NCBI GenBank assembly: GCA_004102645.1
Contig: CP034928.1
Coordinates: 434,001 to 498,000 of the forward strand
Direction of reading: 5' to 3'
DNA length: 64,000 nt
Origin: Candidatus Bipolaricaulis sibiricus
GTDB taxonomy: Bacteria > Bipolaricaulota > Bipolaricaulia > Bipolaricaulales > Bipolaricaulaceae
The position numbers and the translations under genes are program-made. Positions 11,481 to 27,917 of the stretch are shown one piece after another. The notes under the pieces were generated by a model, which did no database searches, was not told the DNA's origin, and worked only from the letters and a program-made list of their open reading frames with translations. How positions within the stretch are numbered: the first letter of the stretch is position 1; the number at the start of each line of letters is the position of its first letter.

Positions 11481-13023
11481 CGCGGCTCACATCCTCCAGC
11501 GCTCGGGTGAACCGGAAGTTCACCGCGCTGATCGTGGCGATGATGACGAAGATGATGATCGAAACGGCCGATGCAAGGCCGAGTTGGTTCCCGCGGTCGC
11601 CCTCGAACGCCAAGCGGTAGGTCCAGGAAATGAGGATGTCCGTCGCCCCGGCCGGCGTCGCCGCGCCGAGCACAGCCGGCCGACCGGCCGTGACGAGCCA
11701 GATGATCGTGAAGTTGTTGAACGTGAACGCGAACGATCCGATGAGAAGCGGGGCAACGCTCACCCAGAGCAAGGGCATGGTGATCGTCCAGAACCTCTGC
11801 CAACCCGTTGCCCCATCCACCCGCGCCGCTTCGTACATCTCCTTGGGGATGCTCTGGAGGGCACCCAGCGAGACGATCATCATGTACGGATAGGTGAGCC
11901 AGACGTTGATGAAGATGAGGGCTGTGCGCGCCCAGAACGGGTCCTGCAGCCAGCGCACCTTCGTGCCGAACAGCTCGCCGATGATTCGGTTGATCACCCC
12001 GAGGTCGGTGTTGAACAGCCCGGCCCACACGAGTGCGGAGATGAACGCCGGCATCGCGTACGGGATGATGAGAAGCGACCGGTAGAAGAACCGGCCACGA
12101 ACGTAGGGGTCGTTGAGGAGGTACGCGAGCACCAGCCCGAGCCAGAAACTGAAGAACACCGTGAGGAACGACCACGCCACCGTCCAGCCGAACACCCGGG
12201 TGAAGTCGGCGCGGATGCCCGGGTTCCTCAGCACATCGAGGTAGTTTCTGAACCCGACGTAGATCTGGAACCCTGGCTCGATCCGCACACCGTCGGGCGA
12301 GGTGAAGTACCCCTCACGAGCCGTGTACACGATCCCCGTCTCGAGGTCACGTATCGCGTCAACGTCCCGCAGGTACTCGTACTTTCGGAGGTATGTTCCG
12401 AACTCGCGGACTGTGGCCAGGCGAACGTGGACCCCCTCCAACATGAGGTCCAACCGCTCGAGCGCGGGCAACGACTGGTAGATCTGGGCCAACGAGAGAC
12501 GTGTGAAGTCGTCGAACGCGACGACCGTCCCGTCTGCTCCCTGGACGAAGCGGGGGTCGGCGAGGTCTACCGGGAGCAGTGCGCTCCTCTCTGACAGGTA
12601 GGACCGTCCATCGTCGGCGAGGAGGATCACCCGGAGCTCACCTTGAGGGTTCCGAAATGCCCAATAGGAGAACGTTGCGTGGTCTGGCGGGAGGTAGTAG
12701 CGGTTCTCTAGCTGGGTGATGACTTGGTTCTTGGTGAGGAGGTTTCCCGTCTGGAGGTTGGTGAGGGACACGTTGATCGTGTACCCGATCGGATACACCA
12801 CCATCGCGAACAGGAACACAAGGCCCGGCAGGAGGAATCGCAGGGGGTACGCCCGCCGCGACAGGACCACGAAGTTGAGGAGGAGCGCTCCGGCGGCGAG
12901 GACGGCGAGCAGAAGATGGTCCCCGCGCAAGAGGAGCGAGACAGCGGCCCAGACGGCCACCGCATCCAATAGGGCGAGGATCCCGAGTTTGACCGCGTGT
13001 GCAACGAGCCCCCGCCCAGCCAT
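11473..13023 (-). CDS. malF: Maltodextrin ABC importer permease MalF
   Basis: Partner permease of MalG, 516 residues, almost the length of E. coli MalF. Three N-terminal hydrophobic segments are followed by a large extracytoplasmic loop at about residues 100-270 (the P2 region that contacts the binding protein) and then five membrane segments. The EAA loop is YEAARVDGATGWQRFWTITMP. ATG 13023 has no purine-rich ribosome site because it directly follows the T tract of the intercistronic hairpin. Either translation is weak or the true start lies a little downstream. Confidence 0.92.
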   Translation of the reverse strand: MAGRGLVAHAVKLGILALLDAVAVWAAVSLLLRGDHLLLAVLAAGALLLNFVVLSRRAYPLRFLLPGLVFLFAMVVYPIGYTINVSLTNLQTGNLLTKNQVITQLENRYYLPPDHATFSYWAFRNPQGELRVILLADDGRSYLSERSALLPVDLADPRFVQGADGTVVAFDDFTRLSLAQIYQSLPALERLDLMLEGVHVRLATVREFGTYLRKYEYLRDVDAIRDLETGIVYTAREGYFTSPDGVRIEPGFQIYVGFRNYLDVLRNPGIRADFTRVFGWTVAWSFLTVFFSFWLGLVLAYLLNDPYVRGRFFYRSLLIIPYAMPAFISALVWAGLFNTDLGVINRIIGELFGTKVRWLQDPFWARTALIFINVWLTYPYMMIVSLGALQSIPKEMYEAARVDGATGWQRFWTITMPLLWVSVAPLLIGSFAFTFNNFTIIWLVTAGRPAVLGAATPAGATDILISWTYRLAFEGDRGNQLGLASAVSIIIFVIIATISAVNFRFTRALEDVSRGV

Positions 13024-13058
13024 AAAAGAGGACAGGGGGCAGCCCTAGGGCTGCCCCC
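13024..13058 (-). terminator. Attenuator hairpin between malE and malF
   Basis: An 11-bp perfect stem, GGGGGCAGCCC (13035-13045) with GGGCTGCCCCC (13048-13058), is followed on the minus strand by TGTCCTCTTTT directly before the malF ATG. It has the form of an intrinsic terminator. Partial readthrough would give more MalE than MalFG, a common need of binding-protein importers. Confidence 0.7.
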
Positions 13059-13070
13059 TCGCGGTGTAGG

Positions 13071-14273
13071 CTACGGGCACTTCAGGGCGGCCTTGATCTT
13101 CTGAACCGCTTCCTGCAATGCCTGTTCAGGCGTTGCCTGACCGTTGGCGATTAGGCTCTGGGCATCGGCCCACGCGCCCCACACCGACGCCATCTCCGGG
13201 ATGTTGGGCATCGGGATGCCGTTCTGCCCCTGGAGACCGAACGCAGCGATGTCGGGATCGCTCTTCACAAGCTCGAACGTTGGTAGGTGGGCCGGCGGCC
13301 GCGGGTTCCGGTGGTACAGCGCAAGCATCGTGTCCTTGGTCGCGATGTAGTTGAGGAGGAAATCAAACGCGAGGACCTTGTTCCGGCTGAACGAGCTCAC
13401 CATGAACCCCTGAACGCCGATAAACGGCTTCGGAACGCCATAGGAACCATCGGCACACTGAATCGACGGGATCATCGCGATACCGTAGTCGATCCCTGCG
13501 GCCTTGGTATCGGCAACGAGCCATGGGCCGGAGATGACCATTGCTGCGTTTCCGCCGAAGAACAGCGCCCGCATCGTGTCCCACGAGACGCCTGCGGGAA
13601 GGAGGCCCTCGTCGATCATGTCTGCGAACAGCTGCGCTCCGCGGAGGGCCCCCTCGTTGGCGAGGCCCACATCACATGGGTTGAGAGCACCGTTGGCATC
13701 CGTCCCGAAGATGTATCCGCCACACGCCGAGAGCATAGGGAACCAGTGATAGGGGTCTGGACCATTCTGGAAGACGATCGCGTACATCGGCTTCGTTGGA
13801 TCCGTGATCTGGCGCGCGAACGCGAGGAGCTCATCCCACGTCTTCGGCATCTCCGGCACAAGCTTCTTGTTGTAGATGATGGCGATGTTCTCTGCCCCCT
13901 GCGGGACACCGTAGTTCTTCCCGCCATAGGAGAACGCCTGTATTGATGACACGCTGAACTCGGCGAGCTTCGGCCCGAAGCTCACGGGTTCCAGCAGCCC
14001 GTTCGCAGCCAGCTCACCCACCCAATCGTGCGCGCCGACGATGATGTCCGGCCCTTGGCCCGTTGGAGCAGCAGTGATGAACTGGCCCCGGATCTGATCG
14101 AACGCGATCTCCACAACCTCTATCTCGACGCCGGTGATCGCCTTGTACTCGACAGCTAGGTCTCGCAGCACCGGGGTTCGCGTGTCATCGGCCCAGATCA
14201 CCAGTTTTGGAACCTGGGCGAACGCCACCGTACCCAGGACCAGCGCCAACGCAAACGTGAGAACTCTCTTCAT
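13071..14273 (-). CDS. malE: Maltodextrin-binding protein MalE
   Basis: Extracytoplasmic substrate-binding protein, 400 residues. The signal peptide is MKRVLTFALALVLGTVAFA with cleavage near AFA-Q. The mature part opens KLVIWADDTRTPVLRDLA and contains GPDIIVGAHDWVGELAANGLL, both typical of the MalE family. Start 14273 is set by AAGGAGGT directly upstream; the longer reading from 14354 is not needed. It lies 84 bp after the GH57 gene with no hairpin between them, so the secreted glucanase and its uptake system may be co-transcribed. Confidence 0.93.
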   Translation of the reverse strand: MKRVLTFALALVLGTVAFAQVPKLVIWADDTRTPVLRDLAVEYKAITGVEIEVVEIAFDQIRGQFITAAPTGQGPDIIVGAHDWVGELAANGLLEPVSFGPKLAEFSVSSIQAFSYGGKNYGVPQGAENIAIIYNKKLVPEMPKTWDELLAFARQITDPTKPMYAIVFQNGPDPYHWFPMLSACGGYIFGTDANGALNPCDVGLANEGALRGAQLFADMIDEGLLPAGVSWDTMRALFFGGNAAMVISGPWLVADTKAAGIDYGIAMIPSIQCADGSYGVPKPFIGVQGFMVSSFSRNKVLAFDFLLNYIATKDTMLALYHRNPRPPAHLPTFELVKSDPDIAAFGLQGQNGIPMPNIPEMASVWGAWADAQSLIANGQATPEQALQEAVQKIKAALKCP

Positions 14274-14357
14274 CCTAACCTCCTTCACACTGTCTCTCGC
14301 CCACCGTTCCGTGTGTTCTGTTGCTGTTTTCTTTCTCGTGTGCGTCGCTCTCACCTC

Positions 14358-17246
14358 CTAGAACCGAACCTCAACCGGTAGAAGCACCGTGTAGCGTTGC
14401 TCCGCCCGATCATACCCCGCCAGGACCTCCTCTTGGGAGACCCCCGCCGGTGCCAGGTAGTCGTAGACCTGCGGGGCCCACAGTGGGTCTGGGCAACCGC
14501 CGCCCGTCCACTCGCCGGGGCTGCCCCCGATCGGGCGGAGGTGGTTCGGACCGTATCCGTCCTGCGAGCCCACGAGCACGTAGTGCCAACCCCGTACCTC
14601 GGGAAGGAGCGTCTTGGGGATCGTGACGATGACCCGCCCCCGTCTGGGGTCGCTCGCGACCTCAACGAGGAATGGGCCCTCGCCGCTTGCCGTCCACAGG
14701 TGCCGCCCGTACGCCGGCCACCCCGCTACCTTCAGGAAGTAGTCCCACGGATGGTCCGGGCTGAACGCGACCTGGGCCGCCTTGCCCTCCTCATGAGCAT
14801 CGATCCTCCCACCTGGTGCGATGTCGAAGTACACGAACAAGATGGGGTGGGAGAACCCGTGGGGCCCATTCCAGGGGTTGGGCAGGGTCGGGAAGTCGAA
14901 CGCGAGCTGCCACCGGTCGTCCGCGTCGTACACCGCGTAGCGGACGAGGTCGAACAGCCCCCTCTCCGCGAACACGCTGTTCAGCGGGTACACGTATGTC
15001 CCCGGTCCGTGGTCATCCTCCGCGGGGTCGTCCATCGCCCACACCTCCACCCCCTGGAGGAGGGTCGGGATCCGCGCCCACAGGGGTCGCTCCGGGGCCT
15101 GCCCGAGAAGAGCGCCCTTCCGCTCCAAGGCCACCGCGAGCACCAGGCTTCCACCGGGTTCCACACCCAGCTCCTCGAACGGGATCCCGAACTCGACGAC
15201 GTTGCCGACAGACGCCGCGCGCTGGGTGAGGGTTCGAATCGGGGAGGCGAGGCGCCACCCGCCCCGGCCGTCGGCCGCGTAGCGGAACACGTACCCCGAG
15301 CCGTCTGCGTTGACCTTGGCCAGATCAAGCTCTACTGCCGATACAAGGGCGAACCCAAGGGGAACCTCGCTGTGGCGGGCGGCAACGTTCGCTCGCTCCC
15401 CCGGCTTGCCGGTTGCGTAGAGGACGAGCTTTGTGTCTGTTCCGATCAGATCGCGAGCCGGACCGTCAAGGTCCACCCGCACGAACAGCGCTCCTTCCCC
15501 GTAGGCCACAGCCAGCTGCTCGACCGCTCCCGTCCCCGGGGTGACAGCCGCCTCGGCCCACTCAGCCGGTTCCGTGACCTGCCCATCGAGCAGGGGTTTC
15601 GCCTCACCCAGGTTGGCACGAAGGGGCACCCGGAGACGCAACGACAGAACCCCGGGAATGTCCCGATCGGCATACCCCGCAGCCCGATAGGCGGCCACAA
15701 GGTGCGTCTTGAACAACCAGTCAAAGAGGTCATCGGTTCCCGAATCCTGGTCATCGCCGTACCACCAGAACCAGTCCGAACCTTCGGCAGCGTAGAGTGC
15801 GCGGAGGGCTTCAGGGTGCGGGTCCTTGGCGAACACGGCCTTCCGGGCTGCCGCCAGCCGCTCCCACGCCTCGTCTTCCTCCGGTTCCCCGCTCCAGGTG
15901 GAGAGATCCCCGGCCCACGACCCTACGGGGATCGCCGTCAACTCCCGTTCGGGGGGGTGACAGGCCAGGAAGCCCTGCGGCGTCACCGTGTTGACCCAGT
16001 CCGCCTGGAGGAGCTCTCCATATAGGGCGCGGAGGAACTCCCGGCCGTTGTCGGGGTAGCCCGCCATGAACATCCAGTTCTCCCCGTCGACGGCCACCAC
16101 CACCACGTGCCTCTCCGGGTGGTCCAGCTCGTCCCAGTAGCGCCGTAGTTCGGACATGAAGTCGCCAACGGCTTCGGCGGTGGGCTTGTTCCCGTAGGCG
16201 AAGCCGATCTTATCCGACAGGTTGTGGTCGCGGAAGAAGAGGACGATGTTCCCGAACCGCCACGGTTGGGTGAGCTCGGCGCGGGTCGGCGTTCGACCAA
16301 GGGACGCGCCCAGCGTCCACTCGTCGGCCACCGTCCACGCAAACCCCGCCTCGGCCAGGAGTTCGATCGCTCGGTCCGAGACTGCCTGTTCGGGAGGCCA
16401 AACCCCGACGGCGGGGGCTCCGAACAGCGCCCGATGCTGATCCTGCGCGAGTTCGAGCTGGCCTAGAATATCCTCGTCCCACCCCCGCTCGGCGAGCAAG
16501 GGGAGGATCGGGTGGTAGAACGGGCTCGTGATGAGCTCGGTCCCCAGCTCCGCCGCCGCGCGGTACGCACCCACGACGCGGGTCAGGACCTCGTGCTGGG
16601 CGCGGACGACACGAGCGAGGTCCGCCTCCGTCCATCCGCTCTGCCCCCGCAGGGAGAGCAAGCCAAGCTCGTCGTGGAGCTCGGGGGAGATCTGCCACAG
16701 GAGGAACAGCCCCGCGGCATCGAGGAGCTCCGCGTCCGTGAGGGGGCGGCTGGCCCGGAGGACGTTGAGCTGAGCGTAGTAGGGATCGTAGTATGCCCCG
16801 CCGGGGCGCAGCATGTAGGGGTTGAGCCAGAAGAACTGCTCTTGCATCGCGGCCCGGACCTCAGGAGACAGGGTCGCCGGCTCGTGGATGAGCGTCCACG
16901 TCCACCGCAGGTGGTTGTCCACCGCGCCGATGAGCTCGTACAGCCCCCCGCGGGCCCGCTCCTCGTCCGTGATCTCGACGTAATCGAGGAGCTGCCAGAG
17001 GAGGCTTGGCTGGAGGTTGTAGGTCACGGCAACACCGGGGAACTCGGCGAGGATGAGGGGCGAGTCGATGTACTCCTGAACCCCGTGCACACGGACCCAC
17101 GGGAGCTCGTACTCCCCCGTAAGGCGATTCCAGTACAAGGGCTGGTGTTGGTGCCACACGATGGCCAGGTTGAGGGGGCCCTTGGACAGAGCGGGCAGGC
17201 CTACCAGAAGGAGGAACAGACCACAAAGCCTCGCGATACGCATCAT
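14358..17246 (-). CDS. Secreted GH57 glycoside hydrolase (amylopullulanase-like)
   Basis: Probable extracellular alpha-glucan hydrolase of 962 residues. It has a signal peptide (MRIARLCGLFLLLVGLPALS), the GH57 motif HQHQPLY at 32-38, the nucleophile Glu in GVWPPEQAVS near 285 and the acid Asp in VVAVDGENWMF near 388. The catalytic barrel and helical part end near residue 560. The remaining 400 residues are beta-rich, with FVYFDIAPGGRIDAHEE, and resemble the glucodextranase C-terminal domain seen after GH57 domains. CGGAGGTGG precedes the paired ATG codons, and a -10-like TAAACT is close by on the minus strand. Its products would feed MalEFG. Confidence 0.9.
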   Translation of the reverse strand: MMRIARLCGLFLLLVGLPALSKGPLNLAIVWHQHQPLYWNRLTGEYELPWVRVHGVQEYIDSPLILAEFPGVAVTYNLQPSLLWQLLDYVEITDEERARGGLYELIGAVDNHLRWTWTLIHEPATLSPEVRAAMQEQFFWLNPYMLRPGGAYYDPYYAQLNVLRASRPLTDAELLDAAGLFLLWQISPELHDELGLLSLRGQSGWTEADLARVVRAQHEVLTRVVGAYRAAAELGTELITSPFYHPILPLLAERGWDEDILGQLELAQDQHRALFGAPAVGVWPPEQAVSDRAIELLAEAGFAWTVADEWTLGASLGRTPTRAELTQPWRFGNIVLFFRDHNLSDKIGFAYGNKPTAEAVGDFMSELRRYWDELDHPERHVVVVAVDGENWMFMAGYPDNGREFLRALYGELLQADWVNTVTPQGFLACHPPERELTAIPVGSWAGDLSTWSGEPEEDEAWERLAAARKAVFAKDPHPEALRALYAAEGSDWFWWYGDDQDSGTDDLFDWLFKTHLVAAYRAAGYADRDIPGVLSLRLRVPLRANLGEAKPLLDGQVTEPAEWAEAAVTPGTGAVEQLAVAYGEGALFVRVDLDGPARDLIGTDTKLVLYATGKPGERANVAARHSEVPLGFALVSAVELDLAKVNADGSGYVFRYAADGRGGWRLASPIRTLTQRAASVGNVVEFGIPFEELGVEPGGSLVLAVALERKGALLGQAPERPLWARIPTLLQGVEVWAMDDPAEDDHGPGTYVYPLNSVFAERGLFDLVRYAVYDADDRWQLAFDFPTLPNPWNGPHGFSHPILFVYFDIAPGGRIDAHEEGKAAQVAFSPDHPWDYFLKVAGWPAYGRHLWTASGEGPFLVEVASDPRRGRVIVTIPKTLLPEVRGWHYVLVGSQDGYGPNHLRPIGGSPGEWTGGGCPDPLWAPQVYDYLAPAGVSQEEVLAGYDRAEQRYTVLLPVEVRF

Positions 17247-17314: not shown

Positions 17315-17343
17315 GGAACTGCCGTCCCCCGCACCGCAGTTCC
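17315..17343 (-). terminator. Hairpin immediately after the nuclease-phosphatase gene
   Basis: GGAACTGC (17315-17322) pairs perfectly with GCAGTTCC (17336-17343) around a 14-nt or slightly shorter loop. It begins at the stop codon of the upstream gene. No U tract follows, so it may stabilise the 3' end or act with Rho. Confidence 0.35.
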
Positions 17344-19259
17344 TACCGGCTGCTGGGTAAGGTGAACGTGTCGAGGGTTGTACGGCGGGGCACTATCTCC
17401 CCGCCCACCTCGACGGCGACTCCCACAGCCTCAACGAAGATCCCGTCCGGGTCGGCTTCCACTCGGAGGTAGAACAGGTGATCGTCGATTCCCACACGGG
17501 ATCCTTCTGTTCGCTCGGGCCCGAGGGGGTACAGGTTGGCGCCGCCGCCACCCACGACGAGGTACGTCACTCCGTCGCGCTCGATTCGCTCGTAGTTGTG
17601 GGCGTGACCACTGAACACAAGGTCCACCCCTAGCTCCACGAATACGGGGTGCCAGAGCGACTGAAGCCCCTCACTCCCCGGCCCGTAGACCGCATCGGAG
17701 GAGAACACTGGGTGGTGGAAGACAACGAACTTGTGTCGCTCTGGACCAGACAGGCTGGCGCGCAGCCAGTCGATCTGGTCGAGGTAGTCCTGGGGCCGGC
17801 GGGCGTTCGTGTCCAGCCCTACCACCACTGCATCCCCCCACCGGAGGGTCCACCACCGCTTCCCCCCCTGCCCGGCACCAGGTGGGAAGTCGAACGACTG
17901 ATAGTAGGTGATGCTGTTGCGCTCGTGATTGCCCAGCACGGGCAGAAATGGAGCCCGGAGCAGCAACCCGGACAACGAGGCAAACAGGTGGTCCCAGTAC
18001 CGCGGGAGTGGGCTCTCCACAAGATCGCCGGCGTGGAGAATGAACTGAAAGGGGGTGGGATCCGTCGCCACGGCATCCCCGACGAGCTGAATCCGGTTCA
18101 CCCCGTCCCATTGCCACTGTGTGTCTGCGATCACGGCGAACGCCACCGGATCCGATGCCGCAGGAGCAGTGGTGAACGTCCCCACAGGGCTCGTCCAGTT
18201 CGCTCCCGTGGTTCCGAGAACGACCCGGTACGCATAGCGCGTTCCCGGTTCGAGACCGTACAGCCGGAGGTGGACGGTCTCGCGACCAGCCGTGCCCGTC
18301 GGTCGATGTTCCTTCGCTGACGGCAACGCGGCCGAGAGGGCGAACGCGTCCCATGGTCCGTACTCGACCCGAGCCGGGAGCGGGCTGTTCGCTGTCCAGG
18401 ATACGGTGACTTCCGTGGCTGACGGTGCGCCAGTGTAGGGCCCGTGCAGGAACGGAAGTGCAGGCCACCCCTCAGGAAGGTCAATCTGCTCGGCGATGTC
18501 CACTTCCAGGAACGGGCCACGACGATCCAGCCAACCCAGTACTCCGTGCACGATGGCCACTCGTCCGACGGACCGCACCAGATCCCCGCCAAGCTGAACC
18601 CCCAGTTCCGGCGCAAGGATCACGTGAAAACCGTACCGGGAACCGGCCGCGTGGAGAACCCACCTCCCGCTGGGATCCTTCTCCCAGCTTCCCACGGTGA
18701 ACCTCACGGACGTAGCCTGCGTGACGTAGGACACAGGATTTGCCTCGATGTCTTCGAGATCCAGGACCACGCGAGCGGTCTCCCAGATTCCCCGGCCGAG
18801 GGCTTGAGCAAGGCGTTCGGCGTGCTGGAACCGACTCCGGTACAGAGCGTTCGGAGGGATGAACAGCGTCCGGGCGAGCCCCGCTAGGAGAAGCTCCTCT
18901 CCCGCCAGCCGCCACTCACCGTCCTGCTCCACCCATACGTGAGCCAGCAGTCGGCTGTGGGCATCCCGCACCTGGCGGTCCAGCTCGAGGTAGACGGTCT
19001 TGCCCATGGTCAGTGTGCGCAGGAGCCGCGTGGCGTCGTCGGCCCACGGTTCGCCGAGCTCCGGGGCATCAATCCCGAGGAGACGGACCCGTTCCCAAGA
19101 CCCAATGCCCGGTACCGGTTCGAGCAGCCGCACTTCGATCGTGTCGCCATCCACCCAGCGGGTGATGCGAGCCGCGGCGCAGCCTGTCGGGGGCTGTGCC
19201 ATCGCCCAGCTGGTGCAGGCTACGGTGATCAGTAGAATCGCCCATCCTCTCGTCTGCAT
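17343..19259 (-). CDS. Secreted fusion: thermonuclease + OB-like + purple-acid-phosphatase-type metallophosphatase
   Basis: A multidomain exported enzyme of 638 residues. After the signal peptide (MQTRGWAILLITVACTSWAMA) comes a staphylococcal-nuclease-type domain at about 28-165 (WVDGDTIEVRL, RVRLLGIDAPELGEPW, and AHSRLLAHVWVE carrying the catalytic Arg region). An OB-like beta segment spans roughly 175-265. A fibronectin-like domain at about 280-375 follows (VTVSWTANSPLPARVEYG), as in purple acid phosphatases, then a metallophosphatase with ADTQW, HAGDLVE, GNHER, FHHPVF and SGHAHNYER. It could cut nucleic acid and remove phosphate. The start is 9 bp after the UgpA-like stop, so it is the last gene of that operon. 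The combination recalls Bacillus YhcR, but the phosphatase class differs. Confidence 0.87.
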   Translation of the reverse strand: MQTRGWAILLITVACTSWAMAQPPTGCAAARITRWVDGDTIEVRLLEPVPGIGSWERVRLLGIDAPELGEPWADDATRLLRTLTMGKTVYLELDRQVRDAHSRLLAHVWVEQDGEWRLAGEELLLAGLARTLFIPPNALYRSRFQHAERLAQALGRGIWETARVVLDLEDIEANPVSYVTQATSVRFTVGSWEKDPSGRWVLHAAGSRYGFHVILAPELGVQLGGDLVRSVGRVAIVHGVLGWLDRRGPFLEVDIAEQIDLPEGWPALPFLHGPYTGAPSATEVTVSWTANSPLPARVEYGPWDAFALSAALPSAKEHRPTGTAGRETVHLRLYGLEPGTRYAYRVVLGTTGANWTSPVGTFTTAPAASDPVAFAVIADTQWQWDGVNRIQLVGDAVATDPTPFQFILHAGDLVESPLPRYWDHLFASLSGLLLRAPFLPVLGNHERNSITYYQSFDFPPGAGQGGKRWWTLRWGDAVVVGLDTNARRPQDYLDQIDWLRASLSGPERHKFVVFHHPVFSSDAVYGPGSEGLQSLWHPVFVELGVDLVFSGHAHNYERIERDGVTYLVVGGGGANLYPLGPERTEGSRVGIDDHLFYLRVEADPDGIFVEAVGVAVEVGGEIVPRRTTLDTFTLPSSR

Positions 19260-19268
19260 CGCCTCCCC

Positions 19269-20435
19269 CTACCGTTCGTAGTGGACTCGCCGCTGGACCA
19301 CCGTGAGCTGGAACAAGGACAGGACAAAGATAACGGCGAACAGGATCACCGATGCGGCGGAGGCGAGTCCGTAGTGGCCAGCATCGAACGCCCGGGTGAA
19401 CACGTAGTAGACCACGGTCAACGCCGACTTCTGGGGGCCGGGTCCCTGGAGGAGGATGAGGACCTCCTCGAAGATCTTGAACGAGCCGATGAGAGAGATG
19501 ATGAGAAGGAAGAACACCTGTGGGGTAACCATCGGGACCGTGATCTTACGCCACACCGCAAACGGACCGGCTCCGTCCACCCGCGCTGCCTCGTAGTACT
19601 CCCGGTCGATCCCCTGCATCCCCGCGAGTAGGATCAGGGCCTGATATCCCACGAATCGCCACACGTTCATGATGACCAGCGCCGCCATCACATAGCGGGG
19701 GTCGTTGAGCCAGTTGAGAAGGCTGAACTCCACCCCAAACCACCCGGCCACGCTGCGCAAGAAGTAGTTGAGGAGACCGAAGTCCCGATCGTAGATCCAC
19801 GACCAGACCATGGTAATGGCGACGATGGGGGTGATGTACGGAAGAAAGCTCGTCAACCGGAAGAACGCTTTCCCCCGAAGCTCTCGGTGGAGAAGCGTGG
19901 CCAGGAGTAGCGCGAGGATCAGGGTAGTGGGAACGCTGACTCCCACGTACACGGAGGTGTTGACCAACGCTTTGGCGAAGTCCGGATCGCGGAAGGCGCG
20001 GGTGAAATTGGCCCAGCCCACGGGTTCCATCGCCCAGCCGGTGGTGGCATGATGCACCCGCAGATCCTCTCCTTCCCTGACGATGATGTACTCCTGCCCT
20101 GACGCCTCATCCTTGACCACCCAGCGATCGACCTGGCGCAGACGCACCCAGAGATCGTCGGGCGCCACTCCACGCTTGAGCAGGGCACTCGCCAGCTCCT
20201 CCGGGATGCGGCCGCGGGCGAGGGTGGTTGCCCACTCCGCACTGTCCGCTGTGGTGTACACCACCGGGCCCGCCACCGTCCGCGTTCGGATGTCGTATAC
20301 GCTGTACAGGAACGCGTTCACGAACGGGTAGAACGTGAACAGCCCCAATACTGCGAGGGTGGGGAGGAGGTACACGTAGGCCTCCAGCGTGTCCCACCAG
20401 AACCGTCGGCCCTTCCGCAGCGTAGGCAGCCTCAT
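19269..20435 (-). CDS. ABC importer permease, UgpA / sugar type
   Basis: Inner-membrane subunit of a carbohydrate-class (CUT1) importer, 388 residues. Membrane segment 1 is YLLPTLAVLGLFTFYPFVNAFLYSVYDI. An unusually long polar insert follows, at about 50-120, predicted to be outside the membrane. Five more segments and the EAA loop YEAARVDGAGPFAVWRKITVPM come next. It lies between the binding-protein gene and the nuclease-phosphatase gene. Substrate could be glycerol-3-phosphate or a sugar; the phosphatase neighbour favours a phosphorylated compound, by inference only. Confidence 0.87.
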   Translation of the reverse strand: MRLPTLRKGRRFWWDTLEAYVYLLPTLAVLGLFTFYPFVNAFLYSVYDIRTRTVAGPVVYTTADSAEWATTLARGRIPEELASALLKRGVAPDDLWVRLRQVDRWVVKDEASGQEYIIVREGEDLRVHHATTGWAMEPVGWANFTRAFRDPDFAKALVNTSVYVGVSVPTTLILALLLATLLHRELRGKAFFRLTSFLPYITPIVAITMVWSWIYDRDFGLLNYFLRSVAGWFGVEFSLLNWLNDPRYVMAALVIMNVWRFVGYQALILLAGMQGIDREYYEAARVDGAGPFAVWRKITVPMVTPQVFFLLIISLIGSFKIFEEVLILLQGPGPQKSALTVVYYVFTRAFDAGHYGLASAASVILFAVIFVLSLFQLTVVQRRVHYER

Positions 20436-20451
20436 CCAGCTTGGGAGTGGC

Positions 20452-20477
20452 GCGGGGGAGGGTTCCCCCTCCCCCGC
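20452..20477 (-). terminator. Intercistronic hairpin after the UgpB-like gene
   Basis: An 11-bp perfect GC stem (20452-20462 with 20467-20477) has a 4-nt loop. No U tract follows. It sits in the 54 bp between the binding-protein and permease genes, the same place as the malE-malF hairpin, and may stabilise the upstream message. Confidence 0.5.
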
Positions 20478-20489
20478 CCCCCCGACCTC

Positions 20490-21680
20490 CTACCTGATGG
20501 CTTCGATCTCGGCCGCAAGCGCGTCCAGGATCGCCTTCGGGGTGTCCTGTCCCTTCACGAGGAGCTCCCAGTAGGTGATCAGCAGGCTGCGCATGTCCAT
20601 GTACCGCGGGTGAAGGAGCTGGCCGAATCCACCGGCGATCAACTGCTCCGTCATCGCCTTCTGCTCAGGCTTGGTAGCGATGTAGGCTTGCCACGTCTCA
20701 CCGTAGATGGCGGTCCGCGTCACTGGGAGGTAGCCCGTCTTCTGGGCCCAGTACGTGGTGTTGTCCTCGCGGAGGAGGAACGCGATCAACTTCGCTGCGG
20801 CCTCGATCTGGGCCCGCGACTGCTTGGGTGCGAACACGGCCAGATTCGTGCCCTGGATCATCGACGCGCAGTTCACATGACAGGGAAGGGGCGCCACCGC
20901 CAACGGAACTCCCGCCGTCTTCGCGGCGTTCATGTTGTAGGTGTAGCCCGCCGAGGTGTCGATGAACAGCCCGATCGTGAGCCCCTTCTGAATGGCGTCC
21001 GATGTGTAGGCGCTGTCCACCAACGCGTACTTGGCAAGGCGTGCCGCGAACTCCGCGGCCTCCAGCCCCGCCGCGTTGTTGATCGTGACCTTCGACCAGT
21101 CGTCGGACAAGATCGAGCCGCCGGCCTGATTGAGGAAGGTCAAGAAGATCTCGGGGTTCGGTGGACGGAACGCTGTTCCGTAGATGCCCTTTGCCTCATC
21201 CTTCCCGATCGCGGTGACGTAGGACTCGAACTCCGCCCACGTGGTCGGCGGATTGGGAACGAGGTCCGGCCGGTAGTAGAGGACCAGGATCGACTTGTTG
21301 AACGGGACCGTCACCATTCGCCCCTCGAACAGCTGGCTGAACTGGGGGAGGAACTGATCTTGGATGTCCTCCGGGAGGAACAAGTCCAGATCGACCAGCG
21401 CGTCGAGCCACAGCGTAGTCCAGTTCTCGTACTGCTGGGCCAAGGTTGGCGGCTCGCCGGCTGCCACCGCTGCGATTAGCTTCTGCTGAAGGGCGCTGTA
21501 CCCCCCCTGGTAGATGAGGTCGACCTCGATGGTCGGGTTCTCGTCGCGGAACTTCTGGACGAGCTCGGTCAGCGTGGTCCCCAATACTCCGCTCATCGCG
21601 TGCCAGAAACTGATCTTCACTTGCCCAAACGCCACCACGCCCAGCACACACAACAACGCTAGTACTGCGATTCGTCGCAT
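20490..21680 (-). CDS. ABC importer substrate-binding protein, UgpB-like
   Basis: Extracytoplasmic solute-binding protein of family 1, 396 residues. The signal peptide is MRRIAVLALLCVLGVVAFG. The mature N terminus, VKISFWHAMSGVLGTTLTELVQKFRDE, resembles UgpB and related glycerol-3-phosphate or sugar binders, as does VPFNKSILVLYYRPDLV. Start 21680 is preceded by GGAGGTGGGTGAC; the longer in-frame start at 21710 lies ahead of the signal peptide. It is the second gene of the unit. Confidence 0.88.
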   Translation of the reverse strand: MRRIAVLALLCVLGVVAFGQVKISFWHAMSGVLGTTLTELVQKFRDENPTIEVDLIYQGGYSALQQKLIAAVAAGEPPTLAQQYENWTTLWLDALVDLDLFLPEDIQDQFLPQFSQLFEGRMVTVPFNKSILVLYYRPDLVPNPPTTWAEFESYVTAIGKDEAKGIYGTAFRPPNPEIFLTFLNQAGGSILSDDWSKVTINNAAGLEAAEFAARLAKYALVDSAYTSDAIQKGLTIGLFIDTSAGYTYNMNAAKTAGVPLAVAPLPCHVNCASMIQGTNLAVFAPKQSRAQIEAAAKLIAFLLREDNTTYWAQKTGYLPVTRTAIYGETWQAYIATKPEQKAMTEQLIAGGFGQLLHPRYMDMRSLLITYWELLVKGQDTPKAILDALAAEIEAIR

Positions 21681-21763
21681 GTCACCCACCTCCATGGGTT
21701 GTCCAGACACCTGTTGCGCCTTCCTCCGGATCCCTGCCTGTTCTTCCTGTTCTCACCTCCCTC

Positions 21764-22618
21764 TCACTTGATCCCGGTGCGGGCGATCCCCTGGATGAAC
21801 TGCCGCTGCGCGAAGAGGAACAGGATCAAGACGGGGACGATCGCCATCGTGGCTGCGGCCATCAGCCGTGGGTAGTCCGTACCGATGTCCATCATGAAGA
21901 ACCTGAGTCCGACGGGCACGGTCCGCAACTCCACCTTGTCGGTCATGATGATCACCCACAGGAACGCGTTCCAGGAGCCAACGAACTTGAACAGGGCCAC
22001 AGTGGCGATCCCCGGCCGGACCAGTGGCACGGCGATCTGGAAGATGTAGCGCAGTCGATGGCACCCGTCGATCCGGGCCGAGTCCCACAGCTCGTCGGGA
22101 ATCGTCTTGAAGAACTGGCGGAGGAGGAAGATCCCGAACACTCCAGCCGTCCACGGGATGATGAGCGCCCAGTACGTGTTGTACCAGCCCAGGCGGTTGA
22201 TGAGGATGAACGATGGCACGAGCAACATCTGGCCGGGGATCATCAGCGTGCCGAGGAGAAGGCCGAGCAGCAGCCCCCGCCCGAGGAACGTCATCTTCGC
22301 CAGGACGTACGCCGCGGGAATGCTCGTCACGACGTCGCCCACCGTGGTGGTGATGGCGAGGAAGAACGAGTTCCAGAAGTAGATGGCAAATGGAGCGGCG
22401 TGCCACGCGGCCGGGTAGTTGTCCCAGCGGACCGGGTTGGGGATCCACTGGGGGGGGATGCGCAGTGCCTGGACGATGTCCTTGAGGGATGTCGTGATCA
22501 TCCAGAACAGCGGCATCGCCATGATCACCGCCACGAAAGCGAGAGACACGTAGACCACCACAAGGCTGCCCACCCGCCTCAGCAGATAGGTCTCCCCGCC
22601 CCGCCGGTGAACCGCCAT
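21764..22618 (-). CDS. ABC importer permease, UgpE / MalG type
   Basis: Second permease of the UgpBA-like importer, 284 residues, six membrane segments. The EAA loop is DSARIDGCHRLRYIFQIAVPL and the C terminus FAQRQFIQGIARTGIK is typical of this class. It is the first gene of the operon: permease, binding protein, permease, nuclease-phosphatase. ATG 22618 gives a normal N terminus; the upstream extension to 22750 has no membrane or signal features and overlaps the promoter. Confidence 0.88.
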   Translation of the reverse strand: MAVHRRGGETYLLRRVGSLVVVYVSLAFVAVIMAMPLFWMITTSLKDIVQALRIPPQWIPNPVRWDNYPAAWHAAPFAIYFWNSFFLAITTTVGDVVTSIPAAYVLAKMTFLGRGLLLGLLLGTLMIPGQMLLVPSFILINRLGWYNTYWALIIPWTAGVFGIFLLRQFFKTIPDELWDSARIDGCHRLRYIFQIAVPLVRPGIATVALFKFVGSWNAFLWVIIMTDKVELRTVPVGLRFFMMDIGTDYPRLMAAATMAIVPVLILFLFAQRQFIQGIARTGIK

Positions 22619-22756: not shown

Positions 22757-24601
22757 CTAGAAGGACAACTTCCAGCCGATGTTCCAGTACTCGAGCGGGT
22801 GCGCCTTCGACTGGTCGATCATCCCGCGCGTAAACACGGCAAGCCCGGCCATGACGGGCACCTCCAGCCTCAGCCGCACGCGCCGAAGCCCAAACAGATA
22901 GGGTCCATCGCCGAGCCAGAAATCCGCATTGAACCAAACATTGCCGCTCCCACAGCAGCTCGCGCTTCGATACGCGAGCCCAACGTACGTCCACTCCGCG
23001 CTGCGGAAGCTCAATGGACTTGCGCTGTTCATCCTCGCCCGATCAAGGGCCACCCCAGCCTCGAGGCGTAGATCCCCGAGCCAGCAGTAGATCCGCCACC
23101 CGTAGATCTGGAACCCGGTCCAGGCGTTGTCCGTCCACACCGCGTCTCCGTAAACAGAGAGGCAACCCCGACCCCCCGGCCAATTGGGCTCGAGGTGCAC
23201 GACCTTCTGGTCGGTGGCGTAGGTGACCGACAGGTCGGCGGTGATCCCGCAACACAGCAGGGGCAGGCCCCTCAGCGTGAGCGCGAAGGTCCCCAATCCA
23301 ACTGGGGCCCAGGATAGCGCGGCATCGTAGCTGATGCCACAGCAGAGGGGACGGCTGTCGGCCCTGACCGCGATCTGCCGAAGCGTGAACCCCCAGCAGC
23401 AGTCTCCGAAGTCGATCGTGATCGTCCACGGGGCAGACGTGTACCGGAGTCGGTGGCTGAGGAACATGCCGGGCAATCCTCCTTCTGTGCAGCAGCGGTT
23501 CCGCGACGTGGAGATCAGGTTCGGCGGCAGGATCACCGCGACACCGTCGATCACCGTGATCGTCCCGTGCACGCACACCTCGCTCGCGTACGAGGTCCCC
23601 ACCGTGGACCAGCCAGGGTGGATCGGCAGGATGACCTCTACCCGATTCCCCACCGCAGCCCCGCCGCCGAGCCTTACGCGGTACCCGCTGTGGCCGTGGT
23701 ACGAGCCAGGAGGGGATCCCGAACTGGGAGTGATGCTCGCGACCGGGCCCTGGACGTACACGGTCTGGCCGACATGGTTCAGGGCCTCGAACCAACGGAT
23801 CGTGGTTCCCGGGCATCCCGCGGACACGGCCACCCCCATGCACGTGCCGAGCGAGAGGGCTGACGGCGAGGTGATGGATACCTCGGCCACGGAATACCCT
23901 CCTGAGGCAGGGCCGCCCGAGGTGTACCGGTAGCCCTTGATCGTCCCGCGCACGCAGACCGTCCTTCCGACCCAGCTCGTCCAGAACTGAGTCCCGAAGG
24001 CTGTCTCGAACGCGGCGACACTCGCCGGGGGAACGTAGATCTGGAACCGATCGGGATCGGGCGAATCCACACCGATGCTCAGGGTTAGCGCCGCCCCCGC
24101 GTACGCGTACCCCGCGACCGGTCCTGCCACGTACACCTCGCGGCCCATGAACTTCCATGCATCCATCCAGGAGACGACCTCGACGCACGGCCAGGCACCG
24201 AACGTGCTTCGGTCGCCAGAGGTGTACTCGGTAGCACGTGCCCAATGGTGGAACGAGAGACGCAGGGTTCCGCCCTCGAGCGGGGTCTCCATGTGGAGCC
24301 AGGCCCTGCGGTACCGGGCCTCCTGAACGTGGAAGTAGATCTTTCCCCAGGCGTCGAACGCCCCCAAGCTTCCGTCCAGATGAAAGTTCTGGTAGCGCAG
24401 CAAGCCATCGGAGTAGATCTTGGACTCGCTCTCCACCCTCCACCCCGGGGCAAACTGCCAGTTGAGGGTGATGTCCGAGCTGTAGATCCGGGTGGTAGGC
24501 AGAAGCTCGAAGGTCAGATCCCAGGACCCAACAAGCGGCATGGCTTGGGCGAGGGCTACCGCCAACACGAGGGACAGCGCAGACGCCAGGTGCTGTCGCA
24601 T
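22757..24601 (-). CDS. Predicted outer-membrane beta-barrel protein with repeated Cys-Cys pairs and OB-like repeats
   Basis: No named family is recognised. The 614-residue product has a signal peptide (MRQHLASALSLVLAVALAQA), an N-terminal beta-rich part, then three or four repeated units of the form VYVAGPVAGY, VCVRGTIKGY, VYVQGPVASI and VCVHGTITVI at about residues 150-390. These look like small OB-type beta units. The second half has alternating amphipathic strands and ends WNIGWKLSF with a terminal Phe, the usual BAM recognition signal of outer-membrane barrels. Vicinal cysteines occur in NRCCTEG, GDCCWGF, PLCCGIS, LLCCGIT and ASCCGSG. AATGGAGGTGGAGG precedes ATG 24601; the longer frame to 25117 runs over the divergent gene and is spurious. 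Confidence 0.72.
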   Translation of the reverse strand: MRQHLASALSLVLAVALAQAMPLVGSWDLTFELLPTTRIYSSDITLNWQFAPGWRVESESKIYSDGLLRYQNFHLDGSLGAFDAWGKIYFHVQEARYRRAWLHMETPLEGGTLRLSFHHWARATEYTSGDRSTFGAWPCVEVVSWMDAWKFMGREVYVAGPVAGYAYAGAALTLSIGVDSPDPDRFQIYVPPASVAAFETAFGTQFWTSWVGRTVCVRGTIKGYRYTSGGPASGGYSVAEVSITSPSALSLGTCMGVAVSAGCPGTTIRWFEALNHVGQTVYVQGPVASITPSSGSPPGSYHGHSGYRVRLGGGAAVGNRVEVILPIHPGWSTVGTSYASEVCVHGTITVIDGVAVILPPNLISTSRNRCCTEGGLPGMFLSHRLRYTSAPWTITIDFGDCCWGFTLRQIAVRADSRPLCCGISYDAALSWAPVGLGTFALTLRGLPLLCCGITADLSVTYATDQKVVHLEPNWPGGRGCLSVYGDAVWTDNAWTGFQIYGWRIYCWLGDLRLEAGVALDRARMNSASPLSFRSAEWTYVGLAYRSASCCGSGNVWFNADFWLGDGPYLFGLRRVRLRLEVPVMAGLAVFTRGMIDQSKAHPLEYWNIGWKLSF

Positions 24602-24883: not shown

Positions 24884-25465
24884 ATGGCGGGACGACTGGA
24901 GGTAGTTACGGGGTGCATGTTCTCGGGGAAGACGGAGGAGCTTCTGCGGCGGGTGGAGCGGGCCCGCATCGCGAGGAAGGAAGTCCTCCTGTTCAAACCC
25001 GAACTCGACACGCGGTACGCTGCGGAGGAGGTGGTCACCCACTACGGGCGGTCCCTCCCGTGCCGGCGGCTGCCGACGGACATCGCGTGGGCGTCGTTCT
25101 CCGAACTCGTTGCCCAACCCCCGTCACCCGTCACCGAAGTGTTCGCATTCGACGAAGCCAACTTCTTCGGCCCGTCGTTCCCCAACCTGTGTGAACGGCT
25201 CGTCTCCTTGGGGAAGCGGGTCATCGTGGCGGGCCTCGACCTCAACTTCCGGGGTGAGCCGTTCGGTCCGATCCCCCAGCTTCTGGCCCTTGCCGACGAG
25301 ACGCTCAAGCTGTCCGCGGTGTGCACCGTGTGTGGCGAGCCCGCCACGCGCTCCCAACGCCTTGTGGATGGTAAGCCCGTCACCGGGGGGCCGGAGGTCC
25401 TCATCGGCGGTCTGGAGAGCTACGAGCCGCGCTGCCGGGCTCACTTCATCTCCCCCGGTCGCTGA
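24884..25465 (+). CDS. tdk: Thymidine kinase
   Basis: Type II thymidine kinase of the salvage pathway, ATP + thymidine to dTMP, 193 residues, normal length. The P-loop GCMFSGKTEELL is at residues 10-21, the catalytic Glu lies in FAFDEANFF, and the substrate and lasso region is GLDLNFRGEPFGPIPQLLALAD. The zinc site is formed by CTVCGEPA and the C-terminal CRAHF. ATG 24884 is chosen because the family starts with the beta-strand LEVVTGCMFSGKT and because a -10 box precedes it by 9 nt. It is followed after 4 bp by the importer ATPase gene. Confidence 0.95.
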   Translation: MAGRLEVVTGCMFSGKTEELLRRVERARIARKEVLLFKPELDTRYAAEEVVTHYGRSLPCRRLPTDIAWASFSELVAQPPSPVTEVFAFDEANFFGPSFPNLCERLVSLGKRVIVAGLDLNFRGEPFGPIPQLLALADETLKLSAVCTVCGEPATRSQRLVDGKPVTGGPEVLIGGLESYEPRCRAHFISPGR

Positions 25466-25469
25466 GCCC

Positions 25470-26216
25470 ATGGGGGCCCCGGCGGTCGAGTTCTGCGAGG
25501 TCTCGTTCGCCTACCGTGGTCAGACGGGGGCGCTGTCCGTCCTCGATCGGGTCTCCCTTGCCGTGTCTCACGGGGGGTGGGCGACCCTGGTCGGACCCTC
25601 GGGGTGCGGGAAGACGACACTTCTCAAGATCGGGGCGAGGCTCCTGGAACCCGACTCCGGCACGGTGCGGGTTCAGGACGGAGGCGATGGGCCACGGATC
25701 GCCTACATGCCCCAGGCCGATACTCTCCTCCCGTGGCGGGATGCCCTCGGAAACGCACTCCTGCCAGCGGAGGCGACGGGGCGCAACCGGGCGCAAGCCC
25801 GGGCCGAGGCCCAGGCGCCGTTCCACGAGTTCGGACTGGCGGGTTTCGAGCGGAGCTACCCCCACGAGCTGTCGGGCGGGATGCGGCAGCGCCTGGCCCT
25901 CATGCGCACACTCCTCTCCCGTGGCGAGGTTCTGCTCCTGGACGAGCCGTTCGGGGCGCTCGATGCCCTGACTCGCACCGCTCTCCAGGATTGGCTTGCT
26001 GCGGCGCGGATCTTCCGTCGGAAGACAGTCCTGTTGGTGACCCACGATGTAGAGGAGGCGGTTCTTCTGTCGGACCAGGTCCATGTCCTCAGCCCTCGTC
26101 CCGCCCGCGTGGTCGCGACACTTCCGGTCGCCCTTCCCCACCCTCGCTTGCGTACCGATCCTCGCATTGCCCAGGCCCGGGCTGACATCCTGAAGAACCT
26201 CGCGTCCCATGCATAG
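25470..26216 (+). CDS. ABC importer ATPase, NitT/TauT class (ThiZ-like)
   Basis: ATPase of a small-molecule importer, 248 residues. Walker A is GPSGCGKTTL near residue 43, the signature LSGGMRQRLALMRTLL near 135, and Walker B VLLLDEPFGALDALTR. The sequence MPQADTLLPWRDALGNALLP is typical of the nitrate/taurine/HMP class. ATG 25470 follows the tdk stop closely; the long upstream frame lies inside tdk and is spurious. It overlaps the permease gene by 8 bp. Confidence 0.9.
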   Translation: MGAPAVEFCEVSFAYRGQTGALSVLDRVSLAVSHGGWATLVGPSGCGKTTLLKIGARLLEPDSGTVRVQDGGDGPRIAYMPQADTLLPWRDALGNALLPAEATGRNRAQARAEAQAPFHEFGLAGFERSYPHELSGGMRQRLALMRTLLSRGEVLLLDEPFGALDALTRTALQDWLAAARIFRRKTVLLVTHDVEEAVLLSDQVHVLSPRPARVVATLPVALPHPRLRTDPRIAQARADILKNLASHA

Positions 26217-26988
26217 GGTCCGGATCAGCGGGCTGCCCAGTGCACTTCTCCTCCTCTCACTTCTCGCCCTGTGGGAGGTCGCGGTGCGCCTGGCAGGGGT
26301 GCCACCCTACATCCTTCCCCCTCCAGCCCGGATCCTGGCCACCCTGGCCGCCGACCTGCCGCTGCTCCTGCGGCACGCCGGCACGACGCTGAGCGAGGTG
26401 GCTGCGGGGCTTGCGCTGGGGGCCGCCAGCGGGGTCACCGTGGCCCTGGTGGGGTTCTACGTCCCCGCGATCGGTCGTGCGCTCCACCCGTTCGTCCTCT
26501 CGTCCCAGGTGGTTCCCGTGTTCGCTCTCGCCCCCCTGCTCGTGTTGTGGTTCGGCTACGGGCTGTGGCCGAAGGTGATCGTGGTGGGCCTGATCACATT
26601 CTTCCCGATCGCGGTCAACCTGGATCACGGTCTGCGATCGGTCGGGCCCGACCTGGTGGATCTCCTCATCACGCTCGGGGCCCGGGAGGCAACGATCTTC
26701 CGGCTGGTCCGACTCCCAGCCGCGCTGCCGGCGGCGATGGCGGGTCTCAAGGTCGCCGCCACGGTGGCCCTTGCCGGGGCCGTGATCGGAGAGTGGATCG
26801 GCGGGCAGGGCGGGTTGGGGTACGTCATGATCCAGGCCAACGCCGTTCTCCGCGCCGACCGGGTGTTCGCCGCTCTTGTCGTGCTTACCCTGCTCGGGAT
26901 CGGGTTGTTCGGCGCCGTGGCCGCCCTTGAGCGTTGTGTCCTCCGCTGGCGCCCGCGCGACTCCCGGCGCAAGATCGCGTCGCGATGA
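26209..26988 (+). CDS. ABC importer permease, NitT/TauT class (ThiX-like)
   Basis: Inner-membrane permease of 259 residues, six membrane segments. It shows the class pattern ILPPPARILATLAADLP after segment 1, VPVFALAPLLVLWFGYG, and the ATPase-contact loop DLLITLGAREATIFRLVRLPAALPAAMAGLKVAA. It overlaps both neighbours (8 bp with the ATPase, ATGA with the binding protein), which makes a single three-subunit importer certain in practice. Confidence 0.9.
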   Translation: MHRVRISGLPSALLLLSLLALWEVAVRLAGVPPYILPPPARILATLAADLPLLLRHAGTTLSEVAAGLALGAASGVTVALVGFYVPAIGRALHPFVLSSQVVPVFALAPLLVLWFGYGLWPKVIVVGLITFFPIAVNLDHGLRSVGPDLVDLLITLGAREATIFRLVRLPAALPAAMAGLKVAATVALAGAVIGEWIGGQGGLGYVMIQANAVLRADRVFAALVVLTLLGIGLFGAVAALERCVLRWRPRDSRRKIASR

Positions 26989-27917
26989 GATGGATGTGGG
27001 CCCTGTTCGTCCCGTTTGTCCTCGGCCACGGGGAGCCACTCCGGGTGATGCTCGACTTCTACCCGAACCCCAACCACGTCCCGCTCTACGTGGCCCAGGC
27101 GCAGGGGCTGTTCCGGGCGGCAGGAGTCGAGGTGGAGATCATTGCCCCCTCCGACCCAAGCGACCCAACGAAGCTTGTCGCAGCTCGGGCGGTAGACCTC
27201 GCGCTGACACCCCAGGCGAACTACCTCCTCGCCAGGGGGGCCGGCCTTCCCCTCGTGGCGGTGGGAGCGCTGATCGATGGGGCCCTGGGCGGCCTGCTGG
27301 CCCTCGAGCGGTCTGGCATCACCGACCTTGCCGACCTGCGCGGACGGCGGATCGGGTATGCCCTCGAACCCCTGGAGCCAGTCCTGTGGCGGACGATGCT
27401 TCGCCATGCCGGAGTGGAGCCGGCGGAGGTAGAGCTCGTCTACGTAGGGATGAACACCTTGTTCGCGCTCCTCGCCCGGCGCGTGGATGCCATTGGGGCG
27501 TTCCGGAACTACGAGGTCCTGGCGGTGGAGGCGCTCGGCGATCAGCCGCGGTTCTTCCCCCAGGAGGAACATGGGGTTCCCGACACCTATGAGCTCGTCC
27601 TGATCGCGCACCCGACGTTCGTGCGGGCACACCTGCCGCGCGTCCGTCTCTTCGTGCAGGCGCTCGCCGAGGCAATCGACTTCACCCTGGACCACCCTGC
27701 CGAGGCCCTGGCCATGTTTGAGGCCGCGGTTCCCGAGCTCGCCGGGGAGGAGCTCACCCGCCGCTCGTTCGCCGCCACGCTTCCCCGCTATGCGCGTGGG
27801 GTACGTCACGACGACGTTCCGCGGTGGGAGGCGATGCAGGCCTACCTCGTCGCCCACGGGCTGATTCCGCACGCCCTGCCCATCACTGACCTCATCACCA
27901 CCGAGGCACTCCCGTAG
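26985..27917 (+). CDS. ABC importer binding protein, ThiY/NMT1-like (pyrimidine precursor of thiamine)
   Basis: Binding protein of 310 residues with a signal peptide (MRWMWALFVPFVLGHG). The mature start LRVMLDFYPNPNHVPLYVAQAQGLF is close to the NMT1/ThiY signature in which the pyrimidine (HMP or its formylamino precursor) is bound; LALTPQANYLLARGAGLPLVAVGAL and IGAFRNYEVLAVE also fit. The likely role is uptake of a thiamine pyrimidine precursor, by homology. I found no TPP riboswitch upstream and no thi biosynthetic gene in the window, so specificity remains an inference. Confidence 0.83.
   Translation: MRWMWALFVPFVLGHGEPLRVMLDFYPNPNHVPLYVAQAQGLFRAAGVEVEIIAPSDPSDPTKLVAARAVDLALTPQANYLLARGAGLPLVAVGALIDGALGGLLALERSGITDLADLRGRRIGYALEPLEPVLWRTMLRHAGVEPAEVELVYVGMNTLFALLARRVDAIGAFRNYEVLAVEALGDQPRFFPQEEHGVPDTYELVLIAHPTFVRAHLPRVRLFVQALAEAIDFTLDHPAEALAMFEAAVPELAGEELTRRSFAATLPRYARGVRHDDVPRWEAMQAYLVAHGLIPHALPITDLITTEALP

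Follow-up and report, generated by a model that had tools for sequence, protein, structure and literature searches.

A putative nucleic-acid scavenging locus with an exported nuclease–phosphatase and a U3GBP-like ABC importer in Candidatus Bipolaricaulis sibiricus

Introduction

In a 64,000-nucleotide stretch of the genome of Candidatus Bipolaricaulis sibiricus (contig CP034928.1, positions 434,001 to 498,000; hereafter the window, in whose numbering positions are given), the genes of a UgpEBA-like ABC importer are followed by a gene joining a nuclease to a phosphatase. Does the enzyme serve the importer, and what would then be taken up? A sequence-only reading had proposed that one exported protein cuts and dephosphorylates extracellular nucleic acid, and that the adjacent transporter takes up the released product. 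A search of the accessible literature found no account of this locus in Bipolaricaulota.

A single exported chain of nuclease, OB-like and phosphatase domains

The fused gene (17343..19259, minus strand) encoded a single chain of 638 aa, with fibronectin-like (Fn3) and metallophosphatase domains behind the nuclease and OB-like ones. Its ORF started with an ATG at 19259, directly preceded by GGGGGAGG, and the stop of the upstream permease gene lay at 19269, leaving a gap of 9 bp. Searching Pfam for the domains named in the sequence-only reading gave matches to SNase (residues 57–160, 1e-13), Pur_ac_phosph_N (residues 278–364, 5e-11) and Metallophos (residues 374–556, 1e-15), all in this one chain and all above the curated cut-offs. 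On the minus strand these corresponded to an SNase domain (18771..19178, residues about 28–163, by Pfam, Foldseek and residue comparison), a fibronectin-like PAP N-terminal domain (18168..18428, PF16656) and a calcineurin-type metallophosphatase domain (17592..18140, PF00149). The middle domain (18480..18770, minus strand, residues about 164–260) gave no match in the Pfam search. In an AlphaFold2 model of the SNase domain plus this region (251 aa, pLDDT 93.5), residues 161–232 of the construct ran strand-strand-strand-helix-strand-strand, which is the order of an OB-fold, so the middle domain is predicted to be OB-like. The full chain was modelled with a pLDDT of 87.7 and a break at the 263–267 linker. 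The N-terminus had a hydrophobic helix (residues 6–15) and an AMA|Q site, predicting that the protein is exported. The ORF, Pfam and AlphaFold2 results confirmed a single exported chain 9 bp behind the importer.

The SNase domain matched SNase structures in Foldseek with target-normalised TM values of 0.81–0.89. Equivalents of D21, R35, D40, E43 and R87 were kept, and T41 was replaced by Ala. R35, E43, R87 and the metal ligand D21 were intact in 26 of 26 importer-linked SNase copies, one R35 being an ambiguous X. By its fold, the catalytic R35/E43/R87 and the ligands D21 and D40, the domain is a member of the Staphylococcal nuclease family.

The phosphatase carried the motifs DTQ, GDLVE, GNHE, FHHP and GHAHNYE, which were largely kept across a family alignment that included one divergent second copy, in locus L156. 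Among solved structures its fold was nearest to plant purple acid phosphatases (PAPs) by Foldseek. The Tyr of GDxxY, the Fe(III) ligand of PAPs, was absent from the window protein (GDLVES), and no Tyr stood at that position across the family alignment. The earlier description as a purple-acid-type phosphatase therefore held for the PAP N-terminal domain and the PAP fold but not for the Tyr with which true purple enzymes bind metal; judged by its motifs, this is a PAP-fold metallophosphatase without that ligand, not a purple enzyme.

Importer genes and the pocket of the binding protein

The conserved first gene of the importer–nuclease unit encoded a UgpE/GlcU/MalG-like permease of the CUT1 type (21764..22618, minus strand), which matched the UgpE model at 1e-38, under its equivalog cut-off. 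It was followed on the same strand by a U3GBP-like (UgpB-like) substrate-binding protein (20490..21710; SBP_bac_8, 8e-34) with the signal peptide MRRIAVLALLCVLGVVAFG and a likely start at ATG 21680, and by a UgpA/MalF-like CUT1 permease (19269..20435) assigned by domain and family models. No ATPase gene was present inside the UgpEBA–nuclease cluster; four TOBE_2 ATPases encoded elsewhere in the genome could drive the importer.

Among solved structures, the Thermus 7c0f series came closest to the binding protein (7e-36 with a single sequence, 2e-56 with a profile; about 31–33% identity), and we take this series to be the T. thermophilus uridylyl-guanosine dinucleotide binder U3GBP. E. coli UgpB was a weaker match (5e-22 and 7e-37, respectively). 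The T. thermophilus U3G-binding protein has been described as one of two proteins to which UgpB is most closely related, in an account that gives no PDB codes; there, two Tyr and two Ser holding the phosphate are conserved in the UgpB, GPC and U3G binders, and a Trp pair is the mark of G3P binders (PMC12718374). The pocket of the window protein was made up of Y71, Y94, E95, S140, Y235, T252, S253, Y258, G287, Y327 and R374. The phosphate quartet (Y71, S140, S253 and Y327) was kept, as were E95, G287 and R374. Positions altered in the compared 7c0f-series PDB variants corresponded to Y71, Y94, S140, Y235, T252 and Y258, and all six were conserved in the window protein, position 94 being Tyr for Phe. 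The signature Y-Y/F-E-S-Y-T-S-Y-G-Y-R was common to the 7c0f series and every SNase-linked copy examined; in several cases, copies without SNase and the phosphatase-only-linked L153 and L156 had Ser at 252 and other changes. The E. coli UgpB–UgpAE system has a homologous CUT1 importer and shares the pocket Y, E, S, S, G, Y and R, but differs in its Trp clamp: GWQGW of E. coli was replaced by AFRP-PNP in the window protein, which was nearer to the 7c0f series.

The 7c0f-like pocket and the kept phosphate quartet suggest that what is imported probably retains a phosphate, as in a nucleotide or NpN, instead of arriving as a free nucleoside. By the same comparison, a nucleotide that carries a phosphate or phosphodiester is the favoured ligand. 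Classical G3P import was disfavoured by the absent Trp clamp. The pocket also appeared unlike that of a binder specific for an unphosphorylated sugar. Thus, of the proposed uptake of a cut and dephosphorylated product, the link to the importer stood, but full dephosphorylation before uptake became less likely.

Conservation of the locus in Bipolaricaulota

Relatives were collected by a contig scan with a narrow SBP alignment, and their neighbourhoods were mapped. The order UgpE–UgpB–UgpA–SNase/OB was found in 28 of the 33 named Candidatus Bipolaricaulota loci whose contig extends beyond UgpA (L121–L134, L137–L144, L146, L148–L150, L155 and L167). These loci are not independent events, since the species are related; moreover, named and unnamed entries stem largely from shared genomes and do not count separately. 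Among the other five, the phosphatase was present in L147, L153 and L156, and neither nuclease nor phosphatase in L151 and L154. The phosphatase adjoined the unit in 23 loci, and a thymidine kinase gene lay near it in 25 Bipolaricaulota loci. As the 1.70-Mb, one-contig genome of Candidatus B. sibiricus contained a single SNase gene and the order recurred in these 28 loci, the adjacency of SNase and importer was not due to chance. In L150 and L116 the importer, PAP, tdk and NMT1-importer genes were all on one strand, whereas tdk was divergent in the window's group; orientation thus changed while gene content stayed, a sign of functional linkage. What is conserved is the pair of importer and nuclease, not the fusion. 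A functional link of nuclease and importer, as first proposed, was therefore supported by a neighbourhood conserved across the phylum.

One of the loci with this order, L124 (DYGJ01000004.1), is titled Thermotoga sp.; it grouped closely with the Bipolaricaulis loci and is probably a mislabelled MAG. In one Bipolaricaulota group without the nuclease (the f5 relatives), an inserted xylose-isomerase-like TIM-barrel gene separated the gene of the binding protein from that of UgpA (L118:8576-9397, L151:9255-10103; Pfam on the L118 copy). The substrate of this importer group may differ.

Origin of the fusion

When 150 relatives were compared, each half of the fused protein usually matched a gene of its own, the two genes being adjacent. 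In a tree of the concatenated nuclease and phosphatase, a branch (92/94) set all seven fused rows (7/7) apart; outside the fused clade, and in the outgroup, the two were separate genes. The linker of the fusion was 7–8 residues long and of the PEGWPAL type. The best reading of these sequences is that nuclease and phosphatase were ancestral neighbours, already side by side, and merged a single time, later, in one clade. The fused chain of the sequence-only reading was real and exported, but would be a derived part of the system.

YhcR of Bacillus is an exported SNase, OB and calcineurin-like phosphatase protein in one chain. Pfam gave no match to the YhcR-type 5′-nucleotidase C-terminal domain in the fusion, which, compared with YhcR, was tied to an importer and arose within Bipolaricaulota. 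The comparison with YhcR made in the sequence-only reading was thus a fair analogy, though not one between the same proteins.

Flanking genes

Upstream of the operon and on the other strand lay a thymidine kinase gene (tdk, about 24884..25465, plus strand; PF00265, 9e-44), next to which a second ABC importer was encoded (25470..27917, plus strand; PF00005, PF00528 and PF09084), comprising an ATPase (25470-26216), a permease (26209-26988) and an NMT1/THI5-type binding protein (about 26985-27917; PF09084, 3e-60). This second importer next to tdk was conserved in relatives. Ten of them (L125–L127, L129–L134 and L148; minus-strand ORFs, e.g. L133:3126-3800) had a second SNase/OB protein on the NMT1-importer side of tdk, which the window did not have. 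By residue comparison these paralogues had lost D21 and D40 in 10/10 and E43 in 9/10; each is a catalytically dead homologue and probably a binding protein. Thymidine kinase and, in relatives, a second importer with a dead SNase paralogue, neither of which had entered the sequence-only reading, strengthened the nucleic-acid interpretation.

Between tdk and ugpE, a gene on the minus strand (22757..24601) encoded an exported protein of 614 aa with OB-like repeats, a beta-rich C-terminal part and a C-terminal Phe. Its OB region and the one in the dead SNase paralogues were homologous (1e-18). Homologues of the protein were rare: only L048/L131 had one, in the corresponding position. The protein is possibly an outer-membrane partner.

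Downstream of the fusion lay genes for GH57 and MalEFG (10623-17246, minus strand); they were rejected as part of the unit, being adjacent in only a minority of relatives. A strong hairpin with a T-rich tail (13034-13059, minus strand; 11 pairs, 9 of them GC) between malE and malF is likely to be an attenuator.

Other lineages and known systems

In Eisenbacteria, Zixibacteria and unclassified bacteria (L103, L105, L106, L174, L176–178, L181, L184, L185, L189, L190 and L192), U3GBP-like importers adjoined large exported LTD, OB-fold, DUF5689 and FlgD-Ig proteins, by analogy a possible second kind of nucleic-acid feeding locus. In these lineages Thr or Ile often replaced the quartet's second Ser, so their importers or ligands may differ. 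In the Bacillota loci listed, read by eye, no exported nuclease was recognised nearby. The Thermus 7c0f protein had the same pocket signature as the window protein, but no nuclease neighbour was present in its own locus; the nuclease–importer link is thus not universal.

Surface SNases beside an ABC importer are known in mycoplasmas (M. agalactiae MAG_5040-5070, mhp379 and Mpn133), and the SNase of M. agalactiae is co-transcribed with an ABC importer proposed for nucleic-acid precursors (PMC3585158, PMC9740415). These operons resembled the Bipolaricaulota loci (28/33) in the conserved position of an exported nuclease next to an ABC importer, but they include an ATPase with two ATP-binding domains and the binding protein P80, whereas here the importer was of the CUT1 type with no ATPase gene, and the phosphatase, OB domain and thymidine kinase were found in a free-living lineage. 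In the portion of the Izemoplasmatales account used here, extracellular nucleases, phosphohydrolases and an ABC importer occur together, and a large LTD/nucleic-acid-binding protein resembles the LTD/OB proteins found beside U3GBP-like importers elsewhere; that portion reads the importers as nucleoside/nucleobase transporters, unlike the U3GBP-like CUT1 type here, and describes no SNase–phosphatase fusion or CUT1 U3GBP-like importer (PMC8289736). Thus, mycoplasmas and Izemoplasmatales provided precedent for nuclease–importer loci; what is new is an importer of the U3GBP-like CUT1 class, the presence of a phosphatase, its fusion to the nuclease and the association with thymidine kinase. The dead SNase beside the second importer was a further difference from both.

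Discussion

We consider it probable that this locus serves to scavenge nucleic acids, an exported nuclease/phosphatase working with an importer of a phosphorylated nucleotide product. Extracellular nucleic acid, the substrate first suggested, was supported as the likely one. With its catalytic residues intact, the exported SNase/OB part would act beyond the inner membrane, binding DNA or RNA and cutting it to 3′-phosphorylated mono- and dinucleotides, from which the metallophosphatase would remove terminal phosphates, giving NpN dinucleoside monophosphates, nucleosides and phosphate. The U3GBP-like protein, as its pocket suggests, would capture a phosphate- or phosphodiester-bearing nucleotide and deliver it to UgpA/UgpE, with energy from a shared ATPase whose gene lies outside the cluster. 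Gene content (a DHHA1 protein of 326 aa, the pyrimidine phosphorylase PYNP) points to a DHH/DHHA1-type phosphoesterase, pyrimidine phosphorylase and thymidine kinase that would lead the product into nucleotide pools or catabolism inside the cell. OMP decarboxylase and ThyX were also present, suggesting pyrimidine and dTMP synthesis. The locus therefore looks more like a means of scavenging or feeding than of rescuing an auxotroph, and the idea that nucleotide auxotrophy drives it was not supported. A narrower version, to which we give only tentative credence, is that of a dedicated NpN importer: SNase would make NpNp, the phosphatase would trim the 3′-phosphate, the CUT1 importer would take up NpN intact and a nanoRNase-type enzyme would split it inside.

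The enzymes might instead dephosphorylate the products before uptake, as the sequence-only reading had it, and do so fully, with the CUT1 importer taking up free nucleosides, thymidine above all. The phosphatase beside the nuclease and the thymidine kinase beside the importer fit this, as does the reading of the mycoplasma nuclease–ABC operons as importers of nucleic-acid precursors; yet all phosphate-coordinating residues were kept in the pocket, and three BMP-type (nucleoside) binding proteins encoded outside the locus give nucleosides another route, which makes this version unlikely. Release of phosphate might also be the point, the Ugp-like importer separately taking up glycerophosphodiesters or glycerol phosphate in a phosphate-starvation set. 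Ugp is a member of the Pho regulon in E. coli, and the UgpB ancestry, the presence of the E/G/R residues with which UgpB holds glycerol and a GDPD (glycerophosphodiester phosphodiesterase) protein encoded outside the locus agree with such a role. We nevertheless hold it to be quite improbable, given the absent Trp clamp, the thymidine kinase and NMT1 importer that travel with the unit, and neighbourhoods in which no phosphate transporter genes were noticed and a cluster with no GDPD gene.

A third alternative is a sugar-uptake island, in which a carbohydrate importer is co-transcribed with an unrelated nuclease. It was suggested by the GH57 and MalEFG genes that come straight after the unit in the window and in a few relatives, and by the isomerase-like TIM-barrel gene inside the importer of the f5 relatives. 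GH57/MalEFG were missing from most relatives' neighbourhoods while SNase was retained, however, and the MalE of the downstream cluster did not have the pocket signature of the UgpB-like protein, so that we regard a carbohydrate importer as very unlikely. Scavenging of nucleic acid with import of a phosphorylated product thus remained the preferred reading.

Thermus is reported to have an ABC protein that binds a dinucleotide but has no clear role, and the nearest kin of that protein here adjoins nuclease, phosphatase and thymidine kinase phylum-wide. The fusion would be a fresh one, joining two consecutive steps of one pathway. If the narrower version is true, NpN import would be a physiological role for U3GBP-type binding proteins and a way of feeding on nucleic acids that saves energy. 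The locus would thus offer a concrete, testable function for the U3GBP-type family and a genetic marker for bacteria feeding on environmental DNA or RNA.
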